From the IMG/VR virus record IMGVR_UViG_3300048928_000660, positions 1-28,794 of that record: 28,794 bases of DNA; one strand, given 5' to 3'. The stretch is from a virus. Below the pieces are notes generated by a model. The model saw nothing but the letters and a program-made list of their open reading frames with translations, was not told where the DNA came from and ran no database searches. Of the stretch, positions 23,224 to 27,978 are shown in pieces. Made by a program: the position numbers and the translations under genes. The stretch's first letter is position 1, and each line of letters opens with the position of its first letter.

Positions 23224-24197
23224 TCAATTTTTCCCGCTTCTGTCCATTCACGCAAAGCGTTCACAATCTGTTCCATAGCATCAGAGGGGTCCAAAAGCGA
23301 TTGATTTGTTCTGACGAAGCGCTGGACGGAAAGCTTCACAATTCCGTTCTTCTCGGTGCCGTCGCCTCGCAATCCTAGATCGGATGGGTCGATGTTTCTG
23401 AGTGCCTCATTGATCGTCGCACGAGAAATTGGCCGGCGTTTGCGTTTCTCTTTGATAAATACCCTGAAAAAGCCTTCAATCCAGCCGTCGTCTGGCACCT
23501 CTGCTCTAAGGCTGGCAATCGCTTCGGGGCTCCATCCCAAGGTTGCCAGGACGTCGAAAACCGTAGCCCCTCGATCCCGCGCCGCTGCCGCTTCCCTCCC
23601 AACTATCTCTTCGATCTGCCCCGCTTGACCTGGCGCCGCGCCGAAATTGGGTTTTGCTGCTACGGTTACCTCGGTGGAATTATCAAGCTCCTTGCCATCG
23701 CCGGCTAGAAACTTGCTATTGAGAATTATTGCCTGACCTACTTCGATCTCTTCGGCCTTGGAAAGCAGCGCTGTGAGATACCTTTCAAGGGTTCGGCCAC
23801 GAACTTGTGCGCCCTCAATCATGCCGACATGATTTCCAACCACGGCGAAATATAGCGCGCCTTTCAGCACACGAGCGCGCTCGCCGACGTTCAGGCTTTG
23901 AACAACGAATTCCGGTGCGTCGTCTTCGAGTGACTGTATCACTGCGTGAACGTCTGCACCCTGCTGTAGGTGGATAATCTGTCCAGCAAAAATAGGCCCG
24001 TCCCAGGTTTCGGGTGGTGAGACCTTGTTCAAAATCACGTAGCTTTGATCTTGGTCGAGATCGATAACTCTGTGCTTCGCATTGTCGGTCCAGCCACGCC
24101 GACGTAGTACGTCAACAATCATCGGCTTGAGTTCGATCCCTTCCCAGAGACCTTCTGTCTTGAGTTGCCGGTACTGTATAGTTGTCTTTGTTGCCAT
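23208..24197 (-). CDS. Unrecognised 329-residue soluble protein, first gene of accessory pair
   Basis: This soluble protein has no membrane span and no motif I can name. The N-terminal half is strand-rich (TTIQYRQLKTEGLWEGIELK, then FVVQSLNVGERARVLKGALY and a conspicuous FAVVGNHVGMIEG with LERYLTALL after it). Residues about 180-215 are Gly-, Ala- and Glu-rich. The C-terminal part (SRATINEALRNIDPSDLGLR, then FVRTNQSLLDPSDAMEQIVN) is helical and might bind nucleic acid. GGAGGG precedes the ATG. It is co-transcribed with the four-span protein and overlaps it by 16 bases. A sensor or toxin role in a two-gene phage-defence system is a hypothesis from architecture and position. Confidence 0.65.
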   Translation of the reverse strand: MATKTTIQYRQLKTEGLWEGIELKPMIVDVLRRRGWTDNAKHRVIDLDQDQSYVILNKVSPPETWDGPIFAGQIIHLQQGADVHAVIQSLEDDAPEFVVQSLNVGERARVLKGALYFAVVGNHVGMIEGAQVRGRTLERYLTALLSKAEEIEVGQAIILNSKFLAGDGKELDNSTEVTVAAKPNFGAAPGQAGQIEEIVGREAAAARDRGATVFDVLATLGWSPEAIASLRAEVPDDGWIEGFFRVFIKEKRKRRPISRATINEALRNIDPSDLGLRGDGTEKNGIVKLSVQRFVRTNQSLLDPSDAMEQIVNALREWTEAGKIDCDFG

Positions 24198-24288: not shown

Positions 24289-24993
24289 CTATAAAGAGTT
24301 CAGTATCGGCGCTGGCCGGTCGGTGAACTTCGAACTGTTGATGTCGCGGCTGACGCGATGCATCTGCATCTGTCCGTCCAGATGATGTGCCAGAATCCCT
24401 TTGAGGTCACTCACCGGCGTAGCCGGATCGAGCCATGCATCAAATACCTCTGGCGCCAGAATGATCGGCATTCGGTCATGAATCTGGCTAATGGGCGACA
24501 CGGCCGGCGCCGTGATGATCGTACAGCTGGTGACCGGCGTTTCCATTCTGGTGTTGTGCGCCCACAGGCCAGCGAAGGCGTATGGGGCACCGCCGGGCAT
24601 CTGGATCAGCCAAGGATCCTTTCCGCCGTCGAGAGCTTTCGTCCACTCATAGAAGCCGTCGGCCGGGATGAGGCAGCGTCTTGTCTTGAAGGCGTCGCGA
24701 AAAGCCGGCGACGAATCTACTGTCTCGATACGCGCGTTGAACATCGCCGCTTTCGGCATGTCCTTGGCCCAGTGAGGCACCAGCCACCACCGGCCGTCGT
24801 CGACGGTCTGGTTGCCTTCATCGTCCATGCGGACGAACGGCACGATCTGGGTCGGCGCTACATTGAAGCGCGCCATGCCGAAGCCGCCCCATTCATTGCA
24901 GCCGGTGTGCTCGCAGTAATGTTCGTCGGGGCCGTGGGGATGGGTGTCTGTCTGCTCTATAGCCATGTCGGCGGTGTATGTGAGTCTCGACAT
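24289..24993 (-). CDS. SRAP-domain protein lacking catalytic Cys2
   Basis: The 234-residue protein has the SRAP (YedK/HMCES) layout. FNVAPTQ lies at 43-49, FNARIET at 85-91 with the conserved Asn86, RCLIPADGFYEW at 106-117 with Glu116, and HDRMP with His172. These proteins normally start Met-Cys, and Cys2 forms a covalent shield on abasic sites in single-stranded DNA. Here the protein starts MSRLTYT: Cys2 is Ser. An unusual insert at about 18-40 has YCEHTGC. No other in-frame start supplies a Cys. Start 4 bases after the previous stop; last gene of an SOS-box operon. Either it cannot crosslink, uses another residue, or acts as a reader only. Confidence 0.8.
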   Translation of the reverse strand: MSRLTYTADMAIEQTDTHPHGPDEHYCEHTGCNEWGGFGMARFNVAPTQIVPFVRMDDEGNQTVDDGRWWLVPHWAKDMPKAAMFNARIETVDSSPAFRDAFKTRRCLIPADGFYEWTKALDGGKDPWLIQMPGGAPYAFAGLWAHNTRMETPVTSCTIITAPAVSPISQIHDRMPIILAPEVFDAWLDPATPVSDLKGILAHHLDGQMQMHRVSRDINSSKFTDRPAPILNSL

Positions 24994-24997
24994 CGGG

Positions 24998-25324
24998 TCA
25001 CCGCCTCACGGGCTTGTTGGCGAACTTCCCTTTATACCAGAAGTGCCACTTGTGGCCGCGGCCGCGCTCGCGTGGGTCAAACCACTCGCCGCCGAAGTGC
25101 TGCAGGAATGCCTCCGCGTCCTCCCGGTTTGCGAAGCAATAGACCTGATACCATTCGTCTTCCCGTGTGACGCTGTGACTGCGAGGGCAGAGGGAGAGGT
25201 CGGCGCAGAACGCGTCGATCACATCGCTTTGCTTTCCCGTACCGAGGGAGTGCAGGCGCGCAATCTGAAAAGGCCAGTCACGGTCAACGCCGGCGGGAGT
25301 TAGTTCGCCCTTCCTATACGCCAT
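24998..25324 (-). CDS. Hypothetical rhizobial phage protein
   Basis: This 108-residue protein has many aromatic residues: RKGELTPAGVDRDWPFQIAR at the start, LSLCPRSHSVTREDEWYQVY in the middle and AFLQHFGGEWFDPRERGRG near the end. I recognise it as a common small protein in rhizobial prophages, with a fixed CxxD-LSLCPR block, but know no function. The ATG at 25324 has GGAG about 11 bases upstream; a longer frame lacks a site. It overlaps the preceding gene by 11 bases and ends 4 bases before the SRAP start, so the three genes form an operon. Confidence 0.68.
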   Translation of the reverse strand: MAYRKGELTPAGVDRDWPFQIARLHSLGTGKQSDVIDAFCADLSLCPRSHSVTREDEWYQVYCFANREDAEAFLQHFGGEWFDPRERGRGHKWHFWYKGKFANKPVRR

Positions 25325-25520
25325 CGGGCCGTTCTCCACTCGGATGCCAGCCCCGGGCGAAGCCGGCGCCCATCGCCCGGCCGGCGAGATCGAGCTGCCA
25401 GCGCAGATAGGCGCAGTCGGCAAGAAGGGTCGCGATTGCTGCTCGGGCATCACCGTTGTGCCAGGCTAGAGCTTCATCGATGGCGGTCATCGTTTCAGGT
25501 CGCGTTTCGAGCGGGCGCAC
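25314..25520 (-). CDS. Small hypothetical protein, first of SRAP operon
   Basis: The 68-residue protein is predicted helical (AIDEALAWHNGDARAAIATLLADCAYLRWQLDLAG in two helices), a pattern common in rhizobial genomes. It starts with GTG at 25520 preceded by AGGAG 9 bases before; an ATG ten codons later has no such site. It lies 76 bases from a LexA-type box and should therefore be induced by DNA damage together with the two genes downstream. Function unknown. Confidence 0.62.
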   Translation of the reverse strand: MRPLETRPETMTAIDEALAWHNGDARAAIATLLADCAYLRWQLDLAGRAMGAGFARGWHPSGERPDGV

Positions 25521-25596
25521 GTCGTCGTTCTCCTGTGTCTATGCCACAGCAGGCATCATTCCATTTGGATCAGATTAACGGCCGTATCGCCGGTTT

Positions 25597-25611
25597 GTTC
25601 TCAATATGTTC
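25597..25611. promoter_or_regulatory. LexA (SOS) box, GTTC-N7-GTTC
   Basis: GTTC at 25597-25600 and GTTC at 25608-25611 are separated by exactly 7 bases (TCAATAT), the direct-repeat form of the SOS box used by LexA in alphaproteobacteria (GAAC-N7-GAAC on the other strand). It lies upstream of the minus-strand operon that ends with the SRAP gene. Reading toward that operon, TTGAGA inside the box could serve as a -35 element, so LexA would block polymerase. The 167-base gap between 25520 and 25688 holds nothing else identified. Confidence 0.65.
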
Positions 25612-25687
25612 TGGGAACGCCAAGAGTCAACCATCATCTTGGGGGATGGTGCAGCGACGGTGGCCCAAGCAGGGGAATTATAGTCCG

Positions 25688-26860
25688 TCACTCATCTTCT
25701 TCTGGTGGAAGCACATGATCGCGGAACTGTCCTGAGAGAATAGGATCAAGTCTATCCGCTTCATTAAGCGCCCAACTTTCCCACGCAGCGAGTATCGAGG
25801 CATCGACCTGTTGAGAGCCGTTTTTTACGGCGTCATTAACTAGTGCGACGAGTTCTCTGATCTCCTTGGCTTGCCGGAGCAAATCGCCGGACGTCCGTAG
25901 GGCTTGGATTCGCTGTTCATTACGTGCTTGCCGTCGGCGCCTTTCCTCATCGTCACGCCGAGCGACTTCCAGGGCCGCACGTTCCTCCGCCTCGCGCAAG
26001 CCGGCCCGTAAGACTGCCTCTCCTGCGACAATTGTCGACGCGGCGATGGTCCCCACTTTCTCTTCAAGCAAGCTCCCGCTGCCGTCTTGCCAGCTTTTTT
26101 TGAAGCGGCCGTGGAACCCCGGATTTATGGTGATGATTAGAGGCGTGCCGGGAGGAAGGGTATCGAGGTGGCGTCTGCCACTGTGATGTCGGCCTCCACC
26201 CAATATCTCGATCTGAACGGCGATAGGGCTATCACCTATTCTGATTAGGCCTGTGAGCTGTCCTTCTTGCTCATAGGCGTGTCCCGCGTGGCCTCGCTTA
26301 ACAATGGTGGAGTACAACGTGCTCCATAATCTCAGTTGACGTTGCCCAACAGGCGAGTCGAACACCGGGCCAGCGTAGGACCAACCGGTGCGAGCGGCTT
26401 TCACCCGCCGCTTTTCTTCTTTCAGAAGTATGTCGCGTAGGCCGGGAGGTGCATGACCGAGGGTCTTCGGCACCTTCACTGCCCCGATCGCCTCCATTTC
26501 AATTTTGAGAAGTTCGTCCAAATCCTCGGGAACGAGCTCTGACGCGAAAGGCCCCATTGACGACATCGGCGCAGCAGTTTGGATGATGTCCCTGAAGCGC
26601 CTATCTATCGCGACTGTGCTTAACTGGCCAGGCTTTCGCGGAGCGGAGTGCGGAACTATGGGGACCCTTTTGCCTGCTTCTACCTTGTTCCAGTACCCCT
26701 GAGGCGGGAGCGGAACTCCGTAGCTCAGCAATTGTTTTTTCAACCCGACATCGGACAAACCAACCCTCGCAGCCAGATCCCGAAGGGGCGCTGACCATGC
26801 AAGGGCGATCAAGTCACTGGGATGAACGTTGATAGTATGCATGTTGCTGTGGTGATGCAT
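25688..26860 (-). CDS. Hypothetical protein with GYW-type helix-turn-helix and coiled coil
   Basis: This 390-residue protein starts with a conserved helix-turn-helix at about 17-64: LIALAWSAPLRDLAARVGLS, then GLKKQLLSYGVPLPPQGYWN. The W-S-x-P-x-x-x-L-A and P-x-P-x-x-GYW pattern is widespread in bacteria but of unknown function. The middle (about 150-260) is strand-rich. Residues about 288-330 are a charged coiled coil (EERAALEVARRDDEERRRRQ) and the end has WESWALNEADRLDPI, a second conserved block of this protein type. The start is uncertain: MHHHSN at 26860 is used, an ATG six codons later is possible. It may regulate transcription or belong to a defence cargo. Confidence 0.65.
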   Translation of the reverse strand: MHHHSNMHTINVHPSDLIALAWSAPLRDLAARVGLSDVGLKKQLLSYGVPLPPQGYWNKVEAGKRVPIVPHSAPRKPGQLSTVAIDRRFRDIIQTAAPMSSMGPFASELVPEDLDELLKIEMEAIGAVKVPKTLGHAPPGLRDILLKEEKRRVKAARTGWSYAGPVFDSPVGQRQLRLWSTLYSTIVKRGHAGHAYEQEGQLTGLIRIGDSPIAVQIEILGGGRHHSGRRHLDTLPPGTPLIITINPGFHGRFKKSWQDGSGSLLEEKVGTIAASTIVAGEAVLRAGLREAEERAALEVARRDDEERRRRQARNEQRIQALRTSGDLLRQAKEIRELVALVNDAVKNGSQQVDASILAAWESWALNEADRLDPILSGQFRDHVLPPEEDE

Positions 26861-27703: not shown

Positions 27704-27802
27704 GACGTATTCTCACTTAAGTTAAAGCGACTGGTGACGCTGGTAGACCATGTCGCATTGGATCTGCCGGGTATGGCGAGAGGAACGAGCAGTGAACAGG
27801 CT

Positions 27803-27902: not shown

Positions 27903-27978
27903 GGAGGGGTGGGTATGACCGGTGACAGCACAAAGCGAATTTCAAGACCGGTGCCTTAAACCGCTCGGCCACCCATCC
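27903..27978 (-). pseudogene. Damaged tRNA-Ser(TGA)-like gene, possible att remnant
   Basis: Reading down the minus strand from 27978, the first 39 bases match a tRNA-Ser 5' half: acceptor strand GGATGGG, TGGCCGAGCGGTTTAAGGC D-arm region, then CCGGTCTTGAAA, the anticodon arm with TGA. After this the expected ACCGG closing strand and the long variable arm are missing. The end has CATACCCA followed by CCCCTCC, which pairs with GGATGGG with one mismatch (U4-C69). The total is 76 bases, about 14 short of a serine tRNA. It looks like a tRNA broken by recombination in the anticodon loop. A functional tRNA is unlikely. Confidence 0.6.

Follow-up and report, generated by a model that had tools for sequence, protein, structure and literature searches.

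A LexA-type promoter conserved among prophage loci heads a gene cassette that often includes SRAP

The LexA motif of alphaproteobacteria is named as the direct repeat GTTC-N7-GTTC in the available portion of PMC7987155. The SRAP proteins YedK and HMCES are established to crosslink to abasic sites. This reaction requires the cysteine at position 2, which becomes exposed after removal of the initiator Met, and YedK without the Cys2 thiol forms no crosslink and shows lyase activity instead (sections available of PMC9436759, from which we also take the roles of the SRAP active-site residues). Aravind et al. 2013 had already noted SRAP in prophages, had described SRAP neighbourhoods containing translesion polymerases, Ku, ATP-dependent ligase and zinc-chelating proteins, and had proposed that phage SRAP might sense damage for lysis (accessible part of PMC3765255). 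For Sphingopyxis granuli, another alphaproteobacterium, an excerpt of PMC6472365 reports that anaerobic growth raises the SRAP genes in parallel with lexA, recA and imuABdnaE2, consistent with SOS control of SRAP in that species. As far as the available texts of these papers go, the earlier tie between SRAP and the SOS response consists mainly of gene neighbourhood and co-induction in one alphaproteobacterium. At the locus described here, the tie is the promoter.

The stretch analysed, referred to below as the window, is an entire record of 28,794 bases of viral DNA from a prophage of soil bacteria. Shinella gives the best genome-contig match for its SRAP part. Portal, virion-structural, tail-fibre and endolysin family matches were obtained in the left part for several of ten scanned proteins. 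The right side carries a tightly packed minus-strand operon of ORF1, ORF2 and the SRAP-like ORF3, in which ORF1 and ORF2 overlap and ORF2 and ORF3 are 4 nt apart. This is the three-gene operon, ending in a DNA-damage-related gene, that the preliminary description had given. The features of the region are as follows.

24289..24993, minus strand: ORF3, 234 aa, an in-frame chimera of about 40 aa from a zinc-finger-like protein and a SRAP domain without its first ~30 aa
24864..24874, minus strand: fusion junction, about 11 nt matched by both parent genes
24998..25324, minus strand: ORF2, 108 aa, ATG at 25324, from an unnamed family that adjoins SRAP in Shinella and Mesorhizobium
25314..25520, minus strand: ORF1, 68 aa, GTG start, a small helical protein with GFxRGW near its end, from an unnamed family
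25533..25549, minus strand: hairpin CTGTG...CACAG just ahead of the Shine-Dalgarno sequence AGGAG, with both arms invariant in 13 aligned sequences and the structure also obtained by folding
25597..25611, minus strand: LexA-type SOS box, GTTCTCAATATGTTC on the plus strand and GAACATATTGAGAAC in the operon direction
25603..25608, minus strand: -10 element CATATT, inside the SOS box (promoter scan, 16-nt spacer)
25624..25630, minus strand: -35 element TTGACTC, which holds a GANTC (CcrM-type) site (promoter scan)
25688-26860, same strand as the operon (minus): ORF4, 390 aa, ending 57 nt ahead of the -35 element

ORF1 has no match in Pfam, PHROGs, NCBIfam or PADLOC, and is predicted to fold into two helices (mean pLDDT 79). 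The same four libraries returned a single sub-threshold Pfam match for ORF2. Its predicted fold is a low-confidence beta-alpha-beta-beta-alpha arrangement (mean pLDDT 63) with no PDB match at E ≤0.001 (best 0.035), and a ferredoxin-like outline is the most that this model allows. ORF4 has no match in Pfam, PHROGs or PADLOC. No terminator was seen on the minus strand between ORF4 and the operon promoter, and read-through transcription is therefore possible. ARAGORN reports no tRNA in the window; by eye, 27918-27977 on the minus strand resembles the 5' half of a serine tRNA and is perhaps an attachment site.

ORF3 matches the Pfam SRAP family PF02586 with an E value of 1.9e-57 over residues 40-220 (profile positions 30-213 of 214), and its best PDB matches likewise begin at residue 40-42. 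In common with YedK and HMCES, it has the core domain with the active-site Asn, Glu and His, found in MFNAR, DGFYEW and IHDRMP when aligned to 2bdv. Unlike those proteins, it lacks the first ~30 residues together with Met-Cys2, and has about 40 residues of another protein in their place. ORF3 starts MSRLTYT, with no Cys2 (the fuller N-terminal sequence is MSRLTYTADMAIEQTDTHPH), and SRAP begins at about residue 41. Its relatives start MCGRF, MCGRY, MCNLY or MCNKY, with MCGRFTQM in most of the Shinella SRAPs that we fetched. The first ~40 residues of ORF3 correspond to the start of a separate 64-aa zinc-finger-like protein. In the intact relative L049, this protein lies upstream, followed by a 74-aa ORF and then SRAP, so the whole operon there comprises five genes, with ORF1 and ORF2 at its head. 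The proximity of SRAP to small zinc-finger-like proteins resembles the neighbourhoods in the available part of PMC3765255; ORF1, ORF2 and the promoter are not mentioned in that part.

Compared with L049 and also with L001 (genome G001), the window lacks 458 bp, with Met-Cys2 of SRAP lost and the reading frame kept. A non-functional SRAP is expected because far more than one residue is gone, and the window copy has probably lost normal SRAP chemistry. By analogy with YedK and HMCES, intact phage copies may crosslink to abasic sites. The fusion could instead be an assembly error, with the real phage carrying the usual five-gene operon, an explanation that we judge unlikely but take seriously. 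The junction was seen in this record alone: a degenerate junction pattern was found in no other viral contig, and among 21 Shinella genomes, eight gave matches that each covered one side only, none of them spanning the join. The junction also sits on the ~11 nt matched by both genes. However, it is clean and in frame, and identity to L049 and L001 reaches only about 87-91% on the two sides, which means that these known sequences were not themselves joined. We treat the fusion as the probable product of a deletion.

The preliminary description had reported an exact GTTC-N7-GTTC direct repeat ahead of the operon, and GTTCTCAATATGTTC matches that motif exactly, 76 nt from the ORF1 GTG. The bare pattern is weak evidence because GTTCN7GTTC occurs three times in the whole window against 0.88 expected, and three or more were found in 6 of 100 shuffles. 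Scaled from the window expectation, about 0.005 occurrences would be expected in the 167-nt gap between ORF4 and ORF1. We scored the site with a matrix built solely from host boxes (lexA, uvrA, imuA, recA and one radical-SAM gene), from which the window box was excluded. The window box received 19.06 bits, the best score in the window, compared with 17.27-20.64 for lexA boxes and 18.58-21.94 for recA boxes; 8 of 300 whole-window shuffles contained a site scoring at least as high. Elsewhere in the window, GAACAGATTGTGAAC at 23259-23273 (16.85 bits, inside ORF5 with no TTGAC ahead) and a box-like site at 27783-27797 (10.48 bits) are probably chance occurrences.

The box overlaps the -10 element of a sigma70-type promoter, TTGACT-16-CATATT. 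We aligned this region with 12 relatives, three of which had been fetched by the box pattern. The relatives read CATATT, CATAAT or CATACT at the -10 position, and the columns invariant across all 13 sequences include TTGAC, GAACATA, the second GAAC and the CTGTG...CACAG hairpin before AGGAG. The hairpin, which is not general beyond Shinella-type loci, could affect translation. Judging from its position, LexA on the box would hide the -10 element from RNA polymerase.

Host genes have operators of the same type. An exact box lies just upstream of lexA in all 12 genomes examined, which had been reached via SRAP loci, and in the same number (12/12) a box with one mismatch, always at the same place, lies ~116 nt ahead of the recA match. 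All seven Shinella genomes have GAACAAAAAAAGAAC upstream of uvrA. For dnaE2, 14 matches exceeded the cut-off and 13 stretches were fetched from Shinella genomes, one at a contig end being omitted; each of the 13 has a box ~2.3 kb upstream. The intervening genes encode ImuA-like proteins (5/5 scanned, below the curated cut-off) and Y-family-polymerase-like proteins (5/5 scanned), as expected for imuA and imuB. Across the seven Shinella genomes, GAACAYANNNNGAAC occurs at 47 sites, versus 4 for the reversed pattern. The window box has the direct repeat of an alphaproteobacterial LexA operator, resembles the SOS operators of lexA, uvrA, recA and imuA in the host genus, and overlaps a promoter-like sequence in a conserved, fixed position. 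It differs from those operators in sitting within a prophage ahead of unnamed genes. In three other loci (L125, L127 and L128), a box reading GAACATATAGTGAAC lies a few bases ahead of the start of a radical-SAM protein of 409 aa, which by the scan of L127 also has helix-hairpin-helix motifs, and this exact box is present in 4 of 7 Shinella genomes.

The -35 region of the prophage promoters resembles that of host imuA. Among the unique prophage promoters, including that of the window, TTGAC is present in 64 of 64, and the full element is TTGACTC in 61, TTGACAC in two and TTGACTG in one. This set leaves out L227, whose 600-nt stretch holds under 60 nt ahead of the box and which reads TTGACGA. 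All 13 Shinella imuA promoters and 2 of 3 radical-SAM genes likewise have TTGACTC ~20 nt from the box, but it precedes none of the boxes at lexA (0/12), recA (0/12) or uvrA (0/7). The Shinella imuA-imuB-dnaE2 SOS promoter and the prophage promoters therefore have TTGACTC and the ~20-nt spacing in common. They differ in the box itself, which is mostly GAACAT... in prophages and mostly GAACAA... at imuA, and in the genes downstream. TTGACTC followed by a box is rare across the order (16 sites in 13 of 150 genomes, control 0), and for this reason we claim the likeness to imuA for Shinella only.

The GACTC within TTGACTC conforms to GANTC, the sequence that CcrM targets (PMC11514494 and PMC6813329, parts available). 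As in a CcrM/GcrA-type promoter, this site lies within the core promoter, and its presence over the -35 element in 61 of 64 promoters points to a possible cell-cycle input. Under such dual control, LexA would act at -10 while GANTC acted through CcrM methylation and GcrA, giving best expression at a given replication stage and after damage. We regard this only as a tentative idea and on balance doubtful. The distribution of TTGACTC among prophage, imuA and radical-SAM promoters, and its absence from lexA, recA and uvrA, is in its favour. Available sections of the two papers add that in Brucella abortus lexA and uvrA are among the genes with GcrA ChIP peaks (PMC6813329) and that CcrM depletion in Agrobacterium raises SOS-related genes, ImuA orthologs among them (PMC11514494). 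However, TTGACT is itself a good -35 hexamer and only the last C goes beyond it, other Shinella prophage-type SOS-box promoters read TTGACA, TTGACC or TTGACTT, and the combination of TTGACTC with a box is rare in the order, as noted above. Moreover, damage still induces Brucella lexA without GcrA (PMC6813329, as excerpted), and GANTC sites near ruvC and imuA are conserved in Caulobacter relatives with no apparent regulatory effect, for which overlap with the LexA motif is offered as an explanation (PMC7987155, as excerpted).

Conservation of the box in related prophages had been proposed as a check on LexA control, and we examined it through ORF1. An aligned set of 14 ORF1 proteins served as the query against viral contigs. 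The search itself made no use of boxes or SRAP, although for five of these 14 proteins the locus had been fetched by a box pattern. The search found 83 relatives, and of the 80 that were kept, seven are contigs already met via SRAP. Every one of the 63 loci with at least 380 nt upstream has an exact box in operon orientation within 600 nt upstream of ORF1, whereas the reversed motif occurs in 0 of 63 and any box in the 600 nt downstream in 3 of 63. The 380-nt cut was set after the distances were seen; of the 17 loci that it excludes, 3 have a box and 14 do not. Over all 80 loci, an exact box is present in 66, and the 14 without one have at most 312 nt upstream. Because many of the viral loci are closely related, some 18 clusters come nearer to the number of independent cases. 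Grouping at 80% identity gives 21 clusters; TTGAC lies 19-21 nt ahead of the box in all 18 that could be tested, and the remaining three, which have no box, are cut short.

Within ~2.7 kb downstream of ORF1, home-made profiles that include a small number of sequences from these ORF1 loci detected SRAP in 46 of the 80 loci and a small zinc-finger-like protein in 57. Pfam confirmed SRAP in the five loci scanned (L189, L223, L228, L250 and L049). We also compiled a set centred on SRAP. Of its 57 loci, 12 had flanks that were too short and were removed; another 12 of 69 earlier loci, being partial matches, were not entered. A box lies no more than 1.84 kb upstream of SRAP in 24 of the 45 loci retained, downstream in 6 and in reversed form in 1, and 21 of the 45 have no exact box in the stretch examined. 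Therefore, not every such SRAP gene is under a box.

Two named phages share the arrangement. Agrobacterium phage Rivra (gp30-gp33) and Sinorhizobium phage phi2LM21 (p58-p64) each have TTGACTC, the box, ORF1 and SRAP, and their ORF1 proteins are 52% and 53% identical, respectively, to that of the window. Unlike the window copy, their SRAP is intact, starting MCNKY or MCNLY, and other small genes lie between. Rivra has an annotated tyrosine integrase and is probably temperate. The phi2LM21 SRAP operon (L277) is flanked by two annotated ATP-dependent DNA ligases, one noted as LigD type, which recalls the SRAP-Ku-ligase neighbourhoods in the available part of PMC3765255. Two exceptions were encountered. 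L005 has ORF1 and a TTGACTC promoter with one changed base in the box. A Shinella oryzae megaplasmid (L278, 2950-3300, reverse strand numbering) has decayed versions of the box, ORF1 and ORF2; over the 7.3 kb read, no query for SRAP or the zinc-finger-like protein gave a match. Its broken box and damaged ORF1 are as expected for a relic.

Together, the host operators, the fixed promoter architecture and the box in 63 of 63 loci strongly support the LexA-type control that the preliminary description had proposed, and from these sequence comparisons we consider LexA control of the operon very likely. We hold it highly probable that the box is a host LexA operator over the -10 element, that the operon is silent until damage occurs, and that the SRAP gene of the window has been cut and fused by deletion. 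LexA on GAAC-N7-GAAC would cover the -10 element and keep the minus-strand operon silent, and DNA damage would free the operon through RecA-driven cleavage of LexA. In L049, damage would then lead to synthesis of ORF1, ORF2, the zinc-finger-like protein, the 74-aa ORF and a SRAP predicted to capture abasic sites, from a promoter of the same design as that of the host translesion-polymerase operon imuA-imuB-dnaE2. In the window, where the promoter is intact and SRAP is broken, ORF1 and ORF2 would probably still be made. Damage control of SRAP, as originally suggested, is thus supported for the relatives and does not apply cleanly to the window, whose SRAP is without its first ~30 residues and Met-Cys2. 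The suggested link of the two unknown proteins to SOS gains support, above all for ORF1 through its 63 loci. The link between operon and SOS holds, and is wider than was known at the outset.

The box might instead be bound by a phage-encoded repressor with the specificity of LexA, making the operon part of a phage switch. This is improbable. The ORF1 loci do come from viral contigs, and 10 of 12 genomes searched have weak, partial matches to the LexA family elsewhere, but the motif matches the operators of host lexA, uvrA, recA and imuA. Among the scanned window proteins, which are part of the ORFs, a transcription-regulator match was obtained only for the small protein at 27703-27458, which is MerR- or excisionase-like; the early region may be missing from the record. 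The further suggestion of a link to prophage induction found no support, as library scans of ORF1-ORF3 (for ORF3, without PHROGs) gave no hit to any family of repressors, antirepressors or lysis proteins, and we found nothing here in support of the lysis-sensing role proposed for phage SRAP. Finally, the three bare matches in the window and the lack of a terminator between ORF4 and ORF1 would suit a chance match in an operon that is constitutive or driven from ORF4, but with the box in 63 of 63 loci, its reverse in none, and a fixed spacing from -35 to box, such a coincidence is scarcely credible.

Host LexA thus remains our candidate for the regulator of a prophage-borne cassette whose conserved promoter is built like that of the host error-prone polymerases. 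We found no description of the ORF1/ORF2/SRAP cassette or its promoter in the open-access texts available, and this conserved SOS cassette of Rhizobiales prophages is possibly new, as is the GANTC site over its -35 element. If the proposed control is correct, prophages would supply DNA-damage tolerance genes just as the host makes its mutagenic polymerases. The unnamed families of ORF1 and ORF2 gain a concrete condition under which to search for function, and Rivra is a phage in which to try. More speculatively, and with considerable doubt, Rhizobiales prophages may have converged on or captured the host imuA-class promoter, with its TTGACTC and LexA box, so that a module for abasic-site capture (ORF1, zinc-finger-like protein and SRAP) is expressed in step with the host mutasome. 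In this scenario, GANTC methylation would be a second, replication-timed input, and ORF1 would represent a new SOS-dedicated family working with SRAP or at the replication fork.

Further boxes were seen near related genes. At L135, L138 and L150 (the same places as L043, L046 and L007), the box is of the class GAACACATRRAGAAC, with ATTTACNNCTC upstream instead of TTGACTC. Boxes of this class precede zinc-ribbon-like or other small genes, followed by the zinc-finger-like protein, and a similar box is present in L049 at 1362-1376. In six further loci from Shinella genomes (L148, L149, L137, L131, L136 and L152), SOS boxes lie ahead of proteins of 55-66 aa that end in QLELRLQ, followed by an ORF1-like gene. 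The C-terminal QLELRL resembles a sliding-clamp-binding hexapeptide.
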